64,000 nucleotides of DNA, taken from the NCBI GenBank assembly GCA_040754075.1, contig JBFMDH010000001.1, positions 428,903 through 492,902 of the forward strand, read 5' to 3'. The notes below the pieces were generated by a model. The model was not told the DNA's origin, made no database searches, and saw only the letters and a list, made by a program, of their open reading frames with translations. The stretch is from Acidobacteriota bacterium (GTDB lineage: Bacteria > Acidobacteriota > Blastocatellia > UBA7656). Positions 16,751 through 42,340 of the stretch are shown piece after piece (position 1 is the first letter of the stretch; every line of letters begins with the position of its first letter). Position numbers and translations under genes: made by a program.

Positions 16751-16780
16751 TTGAAAAATCTTTTGTTTATGCAGTAGTAT
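16751..16780 (+). promoter_or_regulatory. Possible sigma-70-type promoter for the sulfate operon
   Basis: TTGAAA (16751-16756) and TAGTAT (16775-16780) are 18 nt apart and about 20 nt ahead of the riboswitch. Transcription would start near 16787, so the aptamer would be at the very 5' end of the message. A second TTGACA at about 16788 lacks a good -10 box. Confidence 0.4.
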
Positions 16781-16799
16781 TGCCACGTTGACAATTTGT

Positions 16800-16947
16800 C
16801 TGCCTAAGTCATTCGCTTTTCCTAATGGCGAATGGCACGGGGGAACCAACGCTCTCAATAAAAAGAGCACGGGGCGTATCGCAAATTATTGCGTAGGGTA
16901 CTTCCAGCCCAAGCCCGTCAGCTAACCTCGTAGGCGCAAGGGAAGGG
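16800..16947 (+). promoter_or_regulatory. Cyclic di-AMP riboswitch (ydaO/yuaA class)
   Basis: The segment carries the highly conserved core of the ydaO/yuaA aptamer in the right order: CGGGGGAACCAA (16838-16849), GGGGCGTATC (16871-16880), GTAGGGTACTTCC (16893-16905) and CCCGTCAGCTAACCTCG (16914-16930). The closing stem can form from GCCT (16802-16805) and AGGC (16932-16935). ACTTCC near 16900 can pair with GGAAG at 16941-16945, as in known members. This class binds c-di-AMP and in Bacillus turns genes off. It is followed after 30 nt by an intrinsic terminator and then the sulfate-transport operon. Confidence 0.92.
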
Positions 16948-16976
16948 CAGTAACGCCGCTATCATAACTTTTGATT

Positions 16977-17009
16977 GAGCGCGGAGTGTTTTGCTCCGCG
17001 CTCTTTTTC
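16977..17009 (+). terminator. Intrinsic terminator of the riboswitch expression platform
   Basis: A perfect 10-bp stem, GAGCGCGGAG (16977-16986) with CTCCGCGCTC (16994-17003), a 7-nt loop and then TTTTTCT. It lies between the c-di-AMP aptamer and the first gene, about 97 nt before its ATG, so read-through must be controlled. I could not identify a convincing antiterminator pairing by eye. Confidence 0.85.
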
Positions 17010-17106
17010 TATCTGCACAAAGCCGGCGTCCTCCCTGACCAACAACTCAATAAAACAACCTTGATGCAGCCAGCGGTTGGTCTGTGTCAAAGCGGAGGAC
17101 TATGCG

Positions 17107-18174
17107 ATGAATCTCAAACGAAGTAATCGATTGGGCAGGAGTCTATTCTTTTGCCTTGTATTGACGCTCTTCTTTAGCCTCGTCTTTTTACAAGGATGTA
17201 GTAGTGGCAGCAACAAAAGCGCGAATAAAGTGACCTTGATTCTTGGCGCTTACACCACGCCGCGTGAAGCTTACGGCAAAGCCATCCTTCCGGCGTTTAA
17301 AAAATATTGGCAAGAGAAAACCGGACAGGATGTTGAGTTTCAGGAATCCTATCAAGGCAGCGGCGCGCAATCACGCGCCATCATCGGCGGCTTTGAAGCC
17401 GATATTACGGCGCTATCACTGGAAGGCGATGTCGATAAAATCAGTGAAGCCGGTTTGATTACCCATGACTGGAAAGCGCAACCCCATCGCGGCATGGTCA
17501 GCACGTCGATTGTAGTAATTGCGGTTCGCCAGGGCAATCCCAAAGGCATTAAAGACTGGGCGGATTTAGCGCAGGCGGGACTCAATGTTTTAACCCCTGA
17601 CCCGAAAACTTCGGGCGGCGCGCAATGGAACATCAATGCGATTTATGGCGCGGCGCTCAGAGGATTTGCTGGTACGCCGAAAGACGATAAAGCGGCGGCT
17701 CAGGAACTCCTGAAAAATATTTTTCGCAACGTTTCGATTATGGATAAAGGGGCGCGCGAATCCATCACCACCTTTGAAAAAGGCGTCGGCGATGCCGCCA
17801 TTACTTACGAAAACGAAGTGCTGGTCGGCAGAAAAGCCGGGCAGACTTATGAGTATGTGACACCGCGTTCGACTATTTTAATTGAAAACCCTGTGGCGTT
17901 GATTGACAAACATGTTGATAAACATGGCGTGCGCGAAGTCGCCGAAGCCTTCGTGAATTTCTTATGGTCGCAGGACGCCCAACGCGCCTATGCCGAATAC
18001 GGTTTGCGTCCGGTTGACCTGAAAATTAGTGAAGAAGTGAAAAAAAACTTTCCGCCGGTTGATGACCTCTGGCGCATTGATTATCTGGGCGGCTGGAAGC
18101 GCGTGACCGAAGAGATATACGGCGCGCAAGGCGTCTATACGAAAGTCATAGAGGAGTTGCAAAAAAACCAATGA
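17107..18174 (+). CDS. sbp: Sulfate/thiosulfate-binding lipoprotein of an ABC importer
   Basis: Periplasmic-face solute receptor for sulfate. I chose ATG 17107 over an upstream TTG because GGAGGA precedes it by about 8 nt. The 355-aa product starts with a lipoprotein signal ending in the lipobox LQGC (Cys31). The mature protein shows the Sbp/CysP pattern: LGAYTTPREAYGKAI, ESYQGSGAQSRAII, VVIAVRQGNPKGIKDW, LTPDPKTSGGAQWN and the late YENEVL. It opens the operon sbp-cysT-cysW-porin-cysA and overlaps cysT by 4 nt. Thiosulfate could be an alternative ligand. Confidence 0.93.
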   Translation: MNLKRSNRLGRSLFFCLVLTLFFSLVFLQGCSSGSNKSANKVTLILGAYTTPREAYGKAILPAFKKYWQEKTGQDVEFQESYQGSGAQSRAIIGGFEADITALSLEGDVDKISEAGLITHDWKAQPHRGMVSTSIVVIAVRQGNPKGIKDWADLAQAGLNVLTPDPKTSGGAQWNINAIYGAALRGFAGTPKDDKAAAQELLKNIFRNVSIMDKGARESITTFEKGVGDAAITYENEVLVGRKAGQTYEYVTPRSTILIENPVALIDKHVDKHGVREVAEAFVNFLWSQDAQRAYAEYGLRPVDLKISEEVKKNFPPVDDLWRIDYLGGWKRVTEEIYGAQGVYTKVIEELQKNQ

Positions 18175-19040
18175 GCGCCATCGCTCAATCGCAAAAAAAT
18201 AGTCGACCCGTTGCGCGCGCGAAGCCTTGGTTTGCGTGGGGTAAATGGGGCTTGCGCGTGGTAGCGGTTAGTTATTTGTTTTTGATGATTGTGCTGCCGC
18301 TTTCCGCGATATTTCAAAACGGCTTCAGTCAGGGACTCGCGGCTTTCTATCAGGAGTTGATTGCCCCGATAGCTTTTGATGCGCTCAAGCTGACATTGAT
18401 GGTCGCGCTCATCGTCACCGTGATTAACGCGGTGATGGGAACGCTCACGGCTTATGCACTGGTGCGTTATGACTTTCCCGGCAAGAGTCTGTTCAACGCC
18501 ATGATTGATATGCCGTTTGCGATTCCAACATTGGTAACGGGGGTGATGCTGGTGGCGCTTTACGGGCAGCAACGAACGCTCGGCGCATGGCTTGGCGCAC
18601 AGGACATTCAGGTTATCTTTGCCACGCCGGGCATTGTGCTGGCGCTGCTGGTGATTACTTATCCGTTTGTCATTCGCGCGGTGCAACCGCTATTGATGGA
18701 AACCGATATCGGGCAGGAAGAGGCGGCTTATACGATGGGCGCGTCAAAATGGACGACTTTTCGCAAAATACTACTGCCGACAATTTTCCCGGCAATCGTG
18801 ACCGGCGCGCTGCTCAGTTTCGGCAGAGCGCTTGGTGAATTCGGTTCGATTGTCGTCGTCGCCGGAAACATTCCCGGTCGCACACTCACCGCGCCGGTTC
18901 ACATTTATGGACAAATCGAATCGCAGAATCAACACGGAGCAAGCGCCGTATCAATCTTGCTGTTGTCGATTTCATTCCTGTTGATTCTGACGGTTGATTG
19001 GTTGCAAAGCCGCAAACGGAGTACCTATGTCGCAAACTGA
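18171..19040 (+). CDS. cysT: Sulfate ABC transporter permease CysT (CysU)
   Basis: First membrane subunit of the sulfate importer, 289 aa. After a basic N-terminal tail (to about residue 28) come about six membrane helices. The EAA loop that contacts the ATPase is visible as EEAAYTMGASKWTTFRKILLP (about residues 183-203). GRALGEFGSIVVVAGNIPG is a strong CysT signature. Its start overlaps the sbp stop (ATGA), and its end overlaps cysW by 14 nt, so the three genes are translationally coupled. Confidence 0.95.
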   Translation: MSAIAQSQKNSRPVARAKPWFAWGKWGLRVVAVSYLFLMIVLPLSAIFQNGFSQGLAAFYQELIAPIAFDALKLTLMVALIVTVINAVMGTLTAYALVRYDFPGKSLFNAMIDMPFAIPTLVTGVMLVALYGQQRTLGAWLGAQDIQVIFATPGIVLALLVITYPFVIRAVQPLLMETDIGQEEAAYTMGASKWTTFRKILLPTIFPAIVTGALLSFGRALGEFGSIVVVAGNIPGRTLTAPVHIYGQIESQNQHGASAVSILLLSISFLLILTVDWLQSRKRSTYVAN

Positions 19041-19881
19041 AGCTGCTTTTACGCAAATTACTTTGACGCGCAGAAAACGCTTTCGCGTGGGCGAGAGTTT
19101 AATCGTTTTGTTCGTTTTAGGCTACGCTGCGTTTTTATTGGTTGGACCGCTCATCGCCATTATTTTGGGCGCATTTGCGGATGGTTTTGGGGCGTTCATC
19201 AACGCGGTTACTTCCGAAGAAGCAATTTACGCCTTGAAACTCACTTTGATACTGGCGGTTGCCGCAACCCTCATCAATACGATTTTCGGGATGTGCATTT
19301 CCTGGGTTCTGGTGCGCGATGATTTCAAAGGCAAGAGCATTTTAAACGGGCTGGTTGATATGCCGTTTGCGGTGTCGCCGGTTATCGCTGGTTTTATGTT
19401 GATTCTGCTGTTTGGTCGAACCGGTTGGTTTGCGCCTTTGATTGACCGGCTCGGAATCAAAATGGTTTTTGCAACGCCCGGTATGTTAATCGCCACGATT
19501 TTTATCTCTCTGCCATTTGTAATTCGTGAAGTGGTGCCGGTGCTCAAACAGGTCAACCTCGATCAGGAGCAGGCGGCTTACACCATCGGCGCAAGTAAAT
19601 GGCAGACCTTCTGGCGCGTCACACTGCCTGCGATTCGCTGGGGATTGTTTTACGGCATCTCGCTTACGTTTGCCCGCGCGGTCGGGGAAATCGGCGCGGT
19701 CTTGGTGGTAAGCGGCGGCGTGAGCAAATTAACCGAAACCGCAACTCTATTTATTTTTCGTTCACTCGATGATCGCAATTATGTCGGCGCATATGCGATG
19801 TCCGTCGTTCTTGCGGCAATTTCATTCGTCATTTTGATGCTCATCGAACTTTTCAAAAAACGCACAACAGAAAATCACTGA
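19027..19881 (+). CDS. cysW: Sulfate ABC transporter permease CysW
   Basis: Second membrane subunit, 284 aa from ATG 19027, chosen because GGAG lies just upstream and the alternative start would run deep into cysT. It has about six membrane helices, the EAA loop EQAAYTIGASKWQTF and the CysW signature ARAVGEIGAVLVVSGG. It pairs with CysT to form the transmembrane channel. The stop is followed by a 100-nt gap before the porin gene. Confidence 0.95.
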   Translation: MSQTEAAFTQITLTRRKRFRVGESLIVLFVLGYAAFLLVGPLIAIILGAFADGFGAFINAVTSEEAIYALKLTLILAVAATLINTIFGMCISWVLVRDDFKGKSILNGLVDMPFAVSPVIAGFMLILLFGRTGWFAPLIDRLGIKMVFATPGMLIATIFISLPFVIREVVPVLKQVNLDQEQAAYTIGASKWQTFWRVTLPAIRWGLFYGISLTFARAVGEIGAVLVVSGGVSKLTETATLFIFRSLDDRNYVGAYAMSVVLAAISFVILMLIELFKKRTTENH

Positions 19882-19984: not shown

Positions 19985-21490
19985 ATGAATATAAAAATTC
20001 GTTCGTTTACACATAGTTTCATCGTGATGTTGATGACAGTTGTCATTGCTCAGGCACAGGCAGGCGACCAATTATCACTAAAAGCCGATGACGGCAAAGC
20101 GCCTGAATCAACCATTACAGAAGTCGAGCGCCTGAAAAGCGAAATGGAAAAATTGCAAATGGTTGTCGAACAACAGCGGCAATTGCTGCTTGAAATGCAA
20201 AAGCGGCTTGTAATGATGGAAGCGAGTTTGCCGCAAAAAACTTCTGCGCCAAATGATAAATCCGTAGTCGCAAATGCTACTGCGTCGCAAACGCCATCGC
20301 TTGGTGATGGAACCACAGTGACAAAACCGCCTTCAGCACAAGAGAAACCGCCAGCAGTTGCCGGGTGGGATAAAAATCATGCCTTTCTGCGAAGCGCCGA
20401 TGGCGCATTTGAAACCACCATCGGCGGCTACGCTCAACTGGATTTTCGCGGATATGCATCGGGCAATCATCCGCCCAACACTTTTCTCATCCGACGGGCG
20501 CGATTGATTCTCGAAGGCCGTTTGCACCGCTACTACGACTATAAAATCGAAGGCGATTTTTCTGACACCAACAACACCATTTTGCGCGATGGTTTTGTGC
20601 GCATTCATCGCATAGAGGCATTGCAACTCACCTTCGGACAATTTCGCGTGCCGATTTCGCAGGAAGAAATTCGCTCTGACAACACACAGGATTTCATCGA
20701 GCGTTCCCTGGTCAATAATCTGGTGCCCAGTCGCAGTCCCGGCTTGATGGCATCGGGCGTGATAAGCCGAGGTAAATTTGCATATCAGGTTGGCGCGTTC
20801 AATGGCAAAGGATTGCTTGCCGGTAACAATAGCGGCACGCCTGAAATCGCTTTGCGTCTGCGATTCAGTCCGTGGAAACAAGAGAAAATATTTTTAGCGA
20901 AAGGCTTGAGTTTCGGCGGCGCGATTACCCAAGGTCGAAATGTGAACGGGCAGAGTGTTCGCGGGCAAACCGAAAGCCGCAGCTTTACGTTCTTCGCTCC
21001 GGAAACGGTTAATGGAAAATACACGCGGGCGAATGCTGAGTTGACCTGGTTGTTGGGGAGTGCGGCGTTTCGCGCGGAGTATGTGCAAACGCATCAGCAG
21101 CGGCAAAGCTTAGGCGCGGGCGGCACCAATCTTCCGGGCGTCATCGCCAAAGGCTATATGGCGCAGTTCACTTATCTGCTCACCGGGGAAGCTAAACCCG
21201 AAGCGGCAACCGTTACGCCGAAACGCGAACTGTTCAGCAACGAAAATGGCAGGCGCGGATTGGGCGCTTTTGAACTCAAGTTCCGTTATGCCAATTTGCA
21301 AATCGCTGACGGAACGCCGCGAAGCAATCGCGCCGAAACGATTTTCTTTGGTCCCAACTGGTATTTGAATCGTTTCGCGCGTTATCTGCTCGATCTGGGA
21401 TTTGAGCGATACAAAGACCCATCGCGTTCACCTAGTCCACACGATAAAAATTTCTTCGTGGTTCTCAGTCGCCTGCAATTCACGCTCTAA
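19985..21490 (+). CDS. Phosphate-selective porin O/P-like outer-membrane protein
   Basis: A 501-aa outer-membrane beta-barrel of the OprO/OprP family, which forms anion-selective pores. It has a signal peptide (cleaved near AQAQA), then a coiled coil (about 40-82, VERLKSEMEKLQMVVEQQ) that likely mediates trimer contacts, a Pro/Thr linker, and a barrel from about 135 with GYAQLDFRGYA, FLIRRARLILEG, DYKIEGDFS, LTFGQFRVPISQE and a final strand ending in Leu. Its place between cysW and cysA suggests it brings sulfate or related anions across the outer membrane for this importer. That is inference from context; the family is best known for phosphate. Confidence 0.85.
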   Translation: MNIKIRSFTHSFIVMLMTVVIAQAQAGDQLSLKADDGKAPESTITEVERLKSEMEKLQMVVEQQRQLLLEMQKRLVMMEASLPQKTSAPNDKSVVANATASQTPSLGDGTTVTKPPSAQEKPPAVAGWDKNHAFLRSADGAFETTIGGYAQLDFRGYASGNHPPNTFLIRRARLILEGRLHRYYDYKIEGDFSDTNNTILRDGFVRIHRIEALQLTFGQFRVPISQEEIRSDNTQDFIERSLVNNLVPSRSPGLMASGVISRGKFAYQVGAFNGKGLLAGNNSGTPEIALRLRFSPWKQEKIFLAKGLSFGGAITQGRNVNGQSVRGQTESRSFTFFAPETVNGKYTRANAELTWLLGSAAFRAEYVQTHQQRQSLGAGGTNLPGVIAKGYMAQFTYLLTGEAKPEAATVTPKRELFSNENGRRGLGAFELKFRYANLQIADGTPRSNRAETIFFGPNWYLNRFARYLLDLGFERYKDPSRSPSPHDKNFFVVLSRLQFTL

Positions 21491-21505: not shown

Positions 21506-23386
21506 ATGTCCATTATTCTCGAAAATCTGACCAAGCGATACGGCAATCAATTCGTGGTTGATAACCTATCGCTTGAAATTACCGATGGGGAATTATTCGT
21601 TCTGCTGGGTTCAAGCGGCAGCGGCAAAAGCACCATCCTGCGATTGATTGCCGGTCTCACAGAACCAACCGAGGGTCACATATTGCTGCATGGCAAAGAT
21701 GTGACTTACCTGACGCCGCAGGAACGCGGCACCGGTTTCGTCTTTCAAAACTACTCCATCTTTCGTCACCTGAGCGTCAGCGAAAATATCGAGTTCGGCT
21801 TGAAGATTCGCAAAACGCCGCGCGCCGAGCGTGTGAAAAAACGCGAACAATTGCTTGAAATGGTTGGACTCGCGGGACTCGGCAGCCGTTATGCGCATCA
21901 ACTTTCGGGTGGGCAACAACAGCGCGTGGCATTAGCGCGGGCGCTGGCTTATGAACCGAATGTGTTATTGCTTGATGAACCTTTTGGCGCGCTCGATGTG
22001 AAGATTCGCGCGCAATTGCGCCGCAGCCTTAAAGAGATTCAACGTCGACTCGGAGTGACGACAATTCTGGTGACCCACGATCAGGAAGAGGCATTTGAAC
22101 TGGCGGACAGAATCGGCGTGCTTGAACGCGGCAGATTGCTTGAAGTTGACACCGGCGAAAATTTATATGCGTGTCCGAGGACCTTATTTGCGGCGACCTT
22201 TCTGGGCGCAGGTACGGTGCTTGTGGGTAGAGTTGAACAGGGCAAAGCGAAATTCGGCACGCTGAATTTGCCTTTGTCGCCGGAAATTGAGCACAAAGAA
22301 GGCGAACGTGTGCAAGTGTTATTTCGACCCGAACAGGTCAAATTATTTACAGATGAACCGAATGCGGATTTGCCGGTAATCGGCAAAGGCGAAATTATTG
22401 AAGACAATTTCACCGGCGCATTGCGACGATTGCGCCTCAGATTGCCGCATTTGACGGGCACGCGGCAACTTTCCCCTGTGGTGCCGTTCGGTGAAGAGGA
22501 TATGCTGGTCGATGCCGCGGTTGCGCCGGAAAGCGGTTTTGCAGAGAAAGCGGTTTATGTCGGTCTGCGCGATTGGACGATTCTCAAACCTTCGATTCCG
22601 CGCCTGCTGGTTTGTGATTTCGGTGAAGGATTAACGGTTTCGCTTTCGGCGGCGAAAATTCTTGCACAGCAGATGGGCGCGTTAATTACTGTGCTGGCGG
22701 TTGCCGATAACCCCGAAATTGGTGAACGTTTCCGCAGTGTGATTAGTGATGCCATCGAACAGCAGGGATTGGCGCAGGCAGATGTGCATATTCGTTATGG
22801 CAACTTGCTTGAGCAGCTTGCCATTGAGCAGGCTGAATCGTTTTATGAAATGTTGATTGTCTCGGCGAAATCACGAATTAAAAATTTCATAAGCGGCAAT
22901 CGCGAGTCAACGAGCAGGCAGCCCGGCGAATTGTTGCTGAATGAATTGAGTCGTTCGGATATGCCGATTCTGGTGGTGAAAGAAGAACTCACAACCATCA
23001 GGCATCTGTTGATTTGCACGGCGGCAGGCGAACCCGGAAAAAGTGATGTGCGCGTCGGCGGACAACTGGCGCGCCGGCTTGGCGCGACGGTTACTCTTTT
23101 TTATGTGACCAGAGGGGCTGCGGAACCCGATACCTTGGTGCGTAATCACCTGGAACGCGCGGCGGCAACGCTTCGCACCTACGATGTCGAAAGCCGTGTG
23201 CGTTATCGCCAAGCCCACCGACCCGCCGAAGGTATCGTTGCTGAGGCTCACGCCACCGATTATGACCTGATTGTAATGGGCAGTTCCGGTGCGCGTAAGC
23301 GCGCTTTTTTCGGAATGAATAATGTGACGAAAGAGGCGTTTGCAGGAACGCCCAAACCGGTTTTGATTGTTCCTGCTGAAGAATAA
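21506..23386 (+). CDS. cysA: Sulfate ABC transporter ATPase CysA fused to two universal-stress-protein domains
   Basis: ATPase subunit of the importer with an unusual tail; 626 aa against about 350 for ordinary CysA. Residues 1-235 are the ABC domain: Walker A GSSGSGKST (35-43), signature LSGGQQQRVALARAL, Walker B VLLLDEPFGALD and the His switch VTHDQEEAFELADR. A TOBE-like regulatory region follows (about 240-350). Then come two Usp-like domains (about 365-490 and 497-626): LLVCDFGEG and AEQAESFYEMLIVSAKS in the first, LLICTAAGEPGKSDV and DYDLIVMGSSGARKRAFFG in the second. The nucleotide motif G-2x-G-9x-G(S/T) is incomplete in the second (ends Asn-Asn). The fused domains probably sense a cellular signal. 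Confidence 0.92.
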   Translation: MSIILENLTKRYGNQFVVDNLSLEITDGELFVLLGSSGSGKSTILRLIAGLTEPTEGHILLHGKDVTYLTPQERGTGFVFQNYSIFRHLSVSENIEFGLKIRKTPRAERVKKREQLLEMVGLAGLGSRYAHQLSGGQQQRVALARALAYEPNVLLLDEPFGALDVKIRAQLRRSLKEIQRRLGVTTILVTHDQEEAFELADRIGVLERGRLLEVDTGENLYACPRTLFAATFLGAGTVLVGRVEQGKAKFGTLNLPLSPEIEHKEGERVQVLFRPEQVKLFTDEPNADLPVIGKGEIIEDNFTGALRRLRLRLPHLTGTRQLSPVVPFGEEDMLVDAAVAPESGFAEKAVYVGLRDWTILKPSIPRLLVCDFGEGLTVSLSAAKILAQQMGALITVLAVADNPEIGERFRSVISDAIEQQGLAQADVHIRYGNLLEQLAIEQAESFYEMLIVSAKSRIKNFISGNRESTSRQPGELLLNELSRSDMPILVVKEELTTIRHLLICTAAGEPGKSDVRVGGQLARRLGATVTLFYVTRGAAEPDTLVRNHLERAAATLRTYDVESRVRYRQAHRPAEGIVAEAHATDYDLIVMGSSGARKRAFFGMNNVTKEAFAGTPKPVLIVPAEE

Positions 23387-39718: not shown

Positions 39719-41038
39719 CTATCGCTTATTACCCATCAAAGCCAACAAGCCATCAACGAGTGTGCCACGCCAGTTGACATATTCATGTCCGCCGTTGAAT
39801 TCGGCGTAATGCACGAAATAACCTTTGGATTTAAGAATCTCGCGCAGGTGGCGGTTGGCAATAACCATGCTCGGACCTTTGCCCGGTGTCGGGTCGCTTT
39901 CCATCAGTCCTACATCCATATAAAACCGCACAGAGAGTTTCGGGCTTGCGGCAAATTGTTTGGTCAACCATTCGTGTTCTTCATCTTCTCTGCCTTCCGG
40001 TCGCCACCAATATGAACCCGATTGCGACAGCACATTGCCGAAAACTTCCGGGTGACGAAAAGCCGCATAAGCCGAAGCCAAGCCGCCATAGCTTGACCCT
40101 GCAACCACGGTTTGCTGAGCGTCTTTGCTGACATTGTATTTTTCCCTCAGCATCGGCACCAACTCTTTCGCCAGGAAATCGGCGAACTGCGGGTTGCATG
40201 GGAGTTCAACGCCGCGCGCCGCTTGCGATACATTATCAACGGTGACGGCTACCATCGGCGGAATTAAATTTTTGGCGATGAGGTTATCGAGAATATGTTG
40301 CGTCGGCACCAGCGACAGATAGGTGAAGCCGTCGAAGACCACCAGCAACCCGTAAGGTTTGCCGTTCGTTTGATAATCGGGCGGCGTATAAACCCAGATG
40401 TTACGTTCATTGTTTAAAATCGCGCTTTTAATGCGTTGTTTTTCAACCGTGCCTTTTTTGATATTCGCTTGTTCGAGGTGATAGGTTTGTGCCGGAGCAT
40501 CAGGCATTTCGACAAGCGAAGGCGTGAAGCCCGGAAATTTTTTCGGATTGAGCGGGTCGGCTTTAAACGTCGAAATCCGTTGCATCATCGCTTTGAAATC
40601 GTTCAACGGCAATTTATCGAATGATACCAACGAATCGTTAATCGAAAAGGCATAAGTGAATCGCGCATCTTTACGAACCCGAAAGGTTTTGTACCAGACA
40701 TCGGAATTGGCGAGATTTGCCATCCGGCATTTTTCAACGTCGGTGCCTGCTATGCCGCCGAATATCAACACATTTTTGACATCATCTTTGCCGCGATACA
40801 CGAAAGTCACCAGCGCGAATTTGTCGTCAACGGCAATCGGTTCAATGAGCGGCGCGGTATTTGTCGTCATCCCTTGCCAGAAGTTTTCAAGCGCCGCGCG
40901 ATTGCCCGCCGCCAGTTCTTTCTGCAATGCGGCAAGGCGCGGACTGAGGATTTCATCTTGCATCGCGCGGACAGCAGCGGTGCAGGCGAGCAGGCAAAGC
41001 GCGGTTGCAATCAGCAGCGAAAGTTTTTTACTTGGCAT
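39719..41038 (-). CDS. Secreted alpha/beta-hydrolase esterase, enterochelin-esterase-like
   Basis: A 439-aa esterase of the Fes/putative esterase family. I start at ATG 41038 rather than TTG 41044. A signal peptide (KKLSLLIATALCLLACTAAV) leads to a beta-sandwich domain of about 150 residues (DKFALVTFVYRGKDDV, VWYKTFRVRKDARFTYAF) and then the hydrolase with LLVVFDGFTYL and nucleophile elbow GSSYGG. The late His is in FNGGHEYVNWR. It may hydrolyse siderophores or carbohydrate esters. It stands alone on the minus strand. Confidence 0.85.
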   Translation of the reverse strand: MPSKKLSLLIATALCLLACTAAVRAMQDEILSPRLAALQKELAAGNRAALENFWQGMTTNTAPLIEPIAVDDKFALVTFVYRGKDDVKNVLIFGGIAGTDVEKCRMANLANSDVWYKTFRVRKDARFTYAFSINDSLVSFDKLPLNDFKAMMQRISTFKADPLNPKKFPGFTPSLVEMPDAPAQTYHLEQANIKKGTVEKQRIKSAILNNERNIWVYTPPDYQTNGKPYGLLVVFDGFTYLSLVPTQHILDNLIAKNLIPPMVAVTVDNVSQAARGVELPCNPQFADFLAKELVPMLREKYNVSKDAQQTVVAGSSYGGLASAYAAFRHPEVFGNVLSQSGSYWWRPEGREDEEHEWLTKQFAASPKLSVRFYMDVGLMESDPTPGKGPSMVIANRHLREILKSKGYFVHYAEFNGGHEYVNWRGTLVDGLLALMGNKR

Positions 41039-41131
41039 AACCAATCCTTTAATTTTTTTGTTTTACGATGGAATCGACGCAAAGTTTTATGGTCAGGAAG
41101 TTTTAATAATCAGGTTGTTGCTCGGCGTTGT

Positions 41132-41977
41132 TTACCAGCGCAGTTTTTCAGGTAAAAATTCAGCCACCAACGCTTCATAGTATGGGCGCAGGGCGTCGAT
41201 ATCCGGGCGCTGCTCGCCCTTGGAATACAGGTCATAGGGACTGAAGGCACGCACCCAGTCAAACATGTGCTTGTCCTGTCCATTCATCAAATGCGCATAT
41301 TCGTGTTGTTGGTGGATGACATAACAGGAATGATAGCGAATCATGTATAAGCTCTCTTCGGGCAGATAAGCTTTCATCACCTGATAAAGATATTCATCGT
41401 GTCCCCATGAAAAATGCACATTATCCAGACCGCAGCCTTCTGCGTAGATACCGGTTCGGGTTTGATAGAGCGGATTTTGACTGTCGGGATTGGCAGCAAA
41501 AAGTTCCGGGTAAACAATTTTTTGCGAATAAGCACAACCAACCGGAAAGGTATCGCCGACCACTGCCCATTGCGGTTCGCCGAAAAACGACAAGATTTTG
41601 CCGAGGTCGTGAATCAACCCGGTGAGGATGAACCAACGCGGATGCCCGTCACGGCGTATGGCTTCGGCGGTCTGGAGGTTGTGTTCGATTTGCGGCACGT
41701 CGGTGTCCGGGTCGCTGTCGTCAACCAAAGTGCTCAACTGTTCGATGGCTTGCCAAACGCCCATCTCGATTTTCGTTTTTGTGCGATAGGCTGCTTTTTT
41801 GTGGAGTACGAATTCGACAGTTTGATTGGCGTGGTTCATCTGGTAAAGCTCTTTTACCGTGCTGCGCGTTTTGGTCTGATAGTCACGAAAAGACTGAGCA
41901 AACTTATTCCCCCTGCCAGCCCCGAATAACTTTTCAGATGATGGTGTTGAATTCATCGTTGAATCAATTTCACCCAT
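41132..41977 (-). CDS. Myo-inositol oxygenase
   Basis: Di-iron enzyme that cleaves myo-inositol with O2 to D-glucuronate; 281 aa, close to the animal and plant enzyme (about 285 aa). All six known iron ligands can be matched by motif: His99 in [13 protein letters not shown], His123-Asp124 in GLIHDLGK, His193 in WGHDEYLY, His216 in MIRYHSCY and Asp249 in SPYDLYSK. The substrate-site segment [12 protein letters not shown] is also kept. The enzyme is best known from eukaryotes and is less common in bacteria. No inositol or glucuronate catabolic genes flank it. Confidence 0.93.
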
Positions 41978-42340
41978 AACAGGAACCCGTATAAACGTAT
42001 TGATACTTTAAATGCGTATTGTGAGGATGCAGCCCCGGTCATCAGGGCAACCGATGACCAAAACCTCGATATGAATTATAGGGTGCTGTGAAACGCCCGG
42101 ATTATAGCACGACAAGTCAGGCAATTCTACGCGCTCATCTTCTAGCGGGAGTGAGCGCCATAAATTAAGAAAAATTTTTGTGGATTTTGCGTGAGGGCAC
42201 ATTTTCCACAAAGATTATAGGAATACTCAAACTCATCACGCTTCAAGATGAGCATCTGATTAAGCGAGGCTTTTGGTTATCGCTCAACGCGATTCCTTAT
42301 CAGTGAAAACAATCGTAATCGCTTTAGCCGATTTCCTGAC
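41978..42340. other. Intergenic spacer with one hairpin
   Basis: About 360 bases between the inositol oxygenase start and the end of the dipeptidase fusion. A 7-bp hairpin, GGTCATC with GATGACC (42037-42059), is the only structure seen. It probably holds the inositol oxygenase promoter. Confidence 0.4.

Follow-up and report, generated by a model that had tools for sequence, protein, structure and literature searches.

This acidobacterium has only one sulfate ABC importer, and the mRNA that encodes it probably begins with a canonical c-di-AMP riboswitch, which would shut the importer off when the ligand is abundant. The riboswitch and its operon lie on the forward strand of the 64,000-nt stretch analysed here (the window). 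What appears to be new is the target, a sulfate importer, and not the RNA. Described c-di-AMP riboswitch targets are mainly potassium, osmolyte and cell-wall genes (PMC7266159, PMC3766115), and no report of a sulfate gene among them was found in the literature searched, the founding gene tables lying outside its scope.

The single gathering-level Rfam match in the whole window (cmscan) is the c-di-AMP (ydaO/yuaA) riboswitch aptamer RF00379, located at 16791-16951 (+) with a score of 74.9 bits (E 1.5e-15; gathering threshold 38). It is complete, covering model positions 1-134 without truncation, and the covariance model thus gives a high score to the region in which a sequence-only reading of this DNA had recognized a full ydaO/yuaA aptamer. 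The window aptamer retains all columns that show no variation across a set of 34 acidobacterial aptamers, including the core elements GGGG-ACC, GGGG and A-CCG-CAGCTAACC. The window RNA is an ordinary member of the c-di-AMP riboswitch class, and from its sequence c-di-AMP is its expected ligand.

A sigma-70-like promoter (TTGAAA, 18-nt spacer, TAGTAT; 16751-16780, +) ends approximately 10 nt before the aptamer and puts the predicted transcript start close to the aptamer 5' end. A matching -35/-10 layout, with 17-18 nt spacers and at an equal distance from the aptamer, was found in the sulfate-operon leaders of G002, G004, G005, G006 and G261 and before the second riboswitch of the window genome; the leader of G081 has a looser promoter-like layout. 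Considering this position and its retention in relatives, the aptamer would be transcribed first. Downstream of it lies an intrinsic terminator (16977-17008, +), which forms the putative expression platform and consists of a stem-loop at 16977-17003 (-22.2 kcal/mol) followed by TTTTT (U5) at 17004-17008. This sequence motif was present in 0 of 100 dinucleotide shuffles of the window. A dispersed repeat was considered as the origin of the hairpin and rejected, the genome holding just one further copy. Of 74 aptamers of this class in Acidobacteriota, 39 are followed by a strong terminator-like hairpin when a simple criterion is applied. No terminator common to all seven sulfate leaders described below was found: a clear U-tailed one occurs in two of the seven (the window and G002), so the expression platform is not conserved and the remaining sulfate leaders may use a different one.

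Members of the c-di-AMP riboswitch class that carry a separate terminator have proved to be OFF switches when tested (PMC6488665, PMC9337991). Because the experimentally tested members of the class work in this direction, the window riboswitch is, by analogy, most likely a transcriptional OFF switch that would stop sulfate import at high c-di-AMP. When c-di-AMP is scarce, the nascent leader would fold without the terminator at 16977-17008 and sbp-cysT-cysW-porin-cysA(USP) would be transcribed; when it is plentiful, the ligand would hold the aptamer, the terminator would form and sulfate uptake would be turned off. In the ligand-free state of a studied member, the left arm of the terminator is base-paired to the 3' side of P1 and the pseudoknot (PMC9337991). 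In the window, a weak candidate for an anti-terminator strand is CGCTCTCAATAAAAAG (16850-16865, +), which could pair with 16968-16983 in the MFE fold of a partial transcript. This predicted 14-bp alternative helix would occupy the left terminator arm. Its duplex energy is no better than chance, being equalled by 39% of shuffled aptamers, and the anti-terminator is therefore treated as unproved.

The first gene after the terminator is sbp (17107-18174, +), preceded by GGAGG at 17094-17098. It encodes a sulfate-binding lipoprotein of the SubI-like branch (TIGR00971, 242.7 bits, cut-off 155.5) that matches PDB entries 5um2, 1sbp and 6ddn (SubI) and is the sole TIGR00971 match in the genome. It overlaps by 4 nt the sulfate ABC permease gene cysT (18171-19040, +; TIGR02139, 265.6 bits, cut-off 246.1). 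The second permease gene, cysW (18994-19881, +; TIGR00969, 308.1 bits, cut-off 240), has its ORF start at 18994 and probably its true start at 19027. The next gene encodes an outer-membrane porin of the Porin_O_P family (19985-21490, +; PF07396, 109.4 bits), a type also present in other acidobacterial sulfate operons. The last is a fusion of a cysA-type ATPase with a C-terminal USP region (21506-23386, +; PF00005, and PF00582 at aa 499-623). Aptamer, intrinsic terminator and sbp thus follow one another as the sequence-only reading had them; the span that it gave, 16751-18174, does begin at the -35 box and end with the stop codon of sbp, but the operon continues to 23386.

To follow the arrangement across Acidobacteriota, RF00379 matches and the DNA downstream of them were gathered from 58 relatives and from 297 phylum genomes. 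The Sbp, CysT, CysW, (porin), CysA-USP block lies behind the riboswitch in seven acidobacterial genomes, namely the window genome, four others of its family (G002, G004, G005 and G006) and two that belong to other parts of the phylum (G261 and G081). On a tree of 35 Sbp proteins, the label 'has riboswitch' needs three changes, two of which are forced by well-supported branches, and the link between riboswitch and sulfate operon falls into two or three separate lineages. The Sbp of G081 is canonical (484 bits, over the stricter PRK10752 cut-off), with a branch 2.7 substitutions per site from the window-type Sbp. In that genome, the riboswitch sits behind a gene for an Rrf2-family regulator, and the first gene after it is DUF2292 (YezD) according to Pfam. 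YezD and the Rrf2 regulator CymR are linked with sulfur genes.

In the phylum sample, a riboswitch and Sbp occur together in approximately 15 genomes. Assuming some 2,500 transcription units per genome, a rough estimate gives fewer than 0.01 chance coincidences, against four seen in the phylum sample. Chance adjacency is ruled out by the seven genomes in two or three lineages, which also bear out the proposed tie between riboswitch and sulfate-uptake operon. A degenerate or fortuitous leader, in which the aptamer came to lie before sbp by chance or has lost its switching, is very improbable: the unconserved expression platform and the chance-level anti-terminator pairing speak for it, but the full aptamer core is kept, the promoter layout is conserved and the recurrence just described stands against it. 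Beyond Acidobacteriota, the link was not found in 80 SubI-like Sbp loci from many phyla, where the riboswitch was retrieved solely in already-known acidobacterial contigs, and 16 further Sbp loci had no riboswitch. SubI-like Sbp loci without riboswitch occur in sister lineages (Pyrinomonadaceae MGR_bin354, G049, G031, G011, G276, G227 and gp7 AA6) and in Chloroflexota, Nitrospirota, Heliobacteria and Myxococcota. The riboswitch-sulfate link is no general property of sulfate importers; it arose two or three times as an innovation of particular clades.

Sulfate is the likely substrate of the importer, judging from protein family, binding-site residues and neighbouring genes. Seven residues of 1SBP (D11, S45, S130, G131, G132, A173 and W192) are what we take to be its sulfate contacts. 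Five of the seven (S45, S130, G131, G132 and A173) are identical in the window Sbp, while D11 is changed to T50 and W192 to Y234. These two changes could instead point to an importer of another oxyanion (thiosulfate, molybdate/tungstate or phosphate), in which case the switch would not control sulfate. The same could be said of the score of the window Sbp (243 bits vs about 480-515 for canonical Sbp), of CysA and CysW, which fall under the strict cut-offs (TIGR00968, 309.6 bits vs 342.75; equivalog TIGR02140, 284.6 bits vs 329.1), and of the porin, whose family name is phosphate-selective. We nevertheless consider this alternative improbable. Besides the five contacts kept, the aligned segment of M. 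tuberculosis SubI also has Y at the place of W192 and shares the Y-E-N-E change, the ModA score is far under its cut-off, and in G081 an unambiguous canonical sulfate operon with YezD lies behind the same riboswitch. The ATPase of that canonical operon likewise scores under the TIGR00968 cut-off of 342.75 (314.6 bits).

In the named collection searched, genes of the window have their matches among Blastocatellia (Acidobacteriota). The window genome (7.58 Mb, 100% complete) contains one diadenylate cyclase gene (PF02457, 149.1 bits), the enzyme whose presence the proposed c-di-AMP control calls for. The product of this gene carries a membrane part at its N-terminus and the DAC-domain motifs DGA and RHR, and a YbbR/CdaR-like gene comes next, features that together we take to be the CdaA arrangement. 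A PgpH-type gene is encoded elsewhere in the genome, as are two genes of the PAPS-reductase family. Together with the sole Sbp, these genes show that the machinery for both c-di-AMP and sulfate assimilation is present.

A full-sensitivity search of the seven genomes of the window's family detected six riboswitches, all of which precede sulfur genes: five of the six lie before the sbp operon and one before a gene for a SorA-like sulfite dehydrogenase. Riboswitch and Sbp are both present in five of these genomes and both absent in two (G001 and G003). The SorA-like gene lies behind the aptamer at C24:41905-42056 (locus L049 5944-8057, C24 ~39900-42060), which is the window genome's second riboswitch. 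The product of the SorA-like gene contains PF00174 and PF03404 and scores best as a SorA-type sulfite dehydrogenase, although at 127 bits it is far under the equivalog cut-off of 600. Neighbouring genes encode a metallo-beta-lactamase/rhodanese fusion and an ArsR protein that weakly matches the sulfite sensor BigR. No close counterpart of the SorA-like gene was found in relatives, and no clear terminator was seen adjoining this second aptamer.

Elsewhere in Acidobacteriota, the gene directly behind the aptamer encodes AA_permease_2 (KimA-like) in 15 of 48 cases and Kup in 4 of 48, the next commonest targets being SPFH proteins, D-Ala-D-Ala ligase and M23 peptidases. The targets there are the classical regulon, and they agree, as does the literature cited above, with the earlier statement that this class controls mainly potassium, osmolyte and cell-wall genes.

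Several other patterns were observed among the acidobacterial riboswitches. SPFH (band 7) proteins recur as the first or second gene after the riboswitch in several families (L071, L107, L110, L121 and L053). An unusual target, conserved in one genus, is an FAD/NAD(P)-binding protein together with a very large AMP-ligase/acyltransferase fusion (L055, L057, L069, L075, L078 and L080). In genus g11 and a relative, there are aptamers without a co-directional gene of at least 90 aa (L052, L059, L062, L063, L065, L077, L088, L096, L106 and L112), mostly showing about 90 nt, a strong terminator and then a convergent gene. These orphan aptamers may be stand-alone c-di-AMP-binding RNAs.

As to why sulfate import should answer to c-di-AMP, we infer two possible signals that would change c-di-AMP in this host. 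In terms of ionic physiology, sulfate would be one more solute whose uptake is reduced once c-di-AMP signals that K+ or turgor is adequate, an explanation that rivals the other on why the operon is switched and not on how. Most of the targets known for c-di-AMP riboswitches transport K+ or osmolytes (PMC7266159, PMC3766115, PMC6488665), and K+ transporter types are also the commonest first gene in the rest of the phylum (the 15 KimA-like and 4 Kup of 48), which gives this explanation a substantial chance, if somewhat short of an even one. It is at odds with the window's family, where no riboswitch was found on a K+ or osmolyte gene and sulfur genes follow six of six; a sulfite dehydrogenase, moreover, does not import osmolytes.

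Alternatively, and more tentatively, c-di-AMP might be a signal of sulfur or adenylate status in this clade, with the riboswitch closing a feedback loop on sulfate import. One set of DHH/DHHA1 enzymes would act on both pAp, a by-product of PAPS reduction, and pApA, to which c-di-AMP is broken down, and could in this way couple sulfate flux to c-di-AMP. In other bacteria, pAp, c-di-AMP and pApA are shared substrates of DHH/DHHA1-type enzymes (PMC5207132), and the genome has PAPS reductases. The use of the same riboswitch for K+ transporters in other members of the phylum argues against such a signal. It is the exclusively sulfur-related targets of the family that make us lean towards a sulfur or adenylate signal over the ionic explanation. 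It is conceivable, though doubtful, that the regulon of this family has shifted wholesale from K+ and cell wall to sulfur oxyanions, that separate lineages arrived at the same link and that c-di-AMP acts as a sulfur-status signal, possibly via pAp/pApA turnover.

Our results suggest that, in this host and several of its relatives, c-di-AMP, a signal best known from the control of potassium and turgor, regulates the uptake of sulfur as well. Work on this nucleotide, done mostly in Gram-positive bacteria, presents it as a regulator of potassium, osmolytes and the cell wall. A riboswitch link that is conserved, has evolved repeatedly and reaches the one sulfate importer of a Gram-negative clade would widen the remit of this messenger. 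A single RNA and its ligand suffice for testing the link in vitro, and it offers a concrete place to ask whether sulfate assimilation (pAp) and c-di-AMP breakdown (pApA) are coupled.

The USP region of CysA recalls KdpD, whose USP domain binds c-di-AMP via an SxS-x20-FTAxY motif (PMC4686210) and likewise belongs to a c-di-AMP-regulated ion-uptake system. Unlike KdpD, the window CysA-USP lacks this motif, as do all seven CysA-USP proteins; the ATP loop is also absent from the USP part in seven of seven. A search of the PDB retrieved no relative of the region at E up to 0.01. Since both the KdpD motif and the ATP loop are missing, we do not claim a second c-di-AMP input through CysA. CysA-USP fusions, without the usual ATP loop, are widespread in SubI-like operons of Chloroflexota and Acidobacteriota (many loci, L132-L211), and in Chloroflexota operons they widely occur without a riboswitch, a further difference from KdpD.

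Among known riboswitch leaders, that of B. thuringiensis kdpFABC (RF00379, PMC6488665) resembles the window leader in its aptamer, in its place right after the promoter, in the terminator before the gene and in the predicted OFF logic. It differs in that the target in the window is a sulfate ABC importer with an outer-membrane porin, in Acidobacteriota. The KimA and Kup leaders found elsewhere in the phylum have an aptamer of the same family, many of them with a strong terminator, but they precede potassium transporters whereas the window leader precedes sulfur genes. The importer itself shares gene order and protein families with Sbp-CysTWA and with mycobacterial SubI-CysTWA (PDB 6ddn), including a SubI-like binding-site motif; to these systems, the window operon adds the outer-membrane porin, the CysA-USP fusion and the leader riboswitch.
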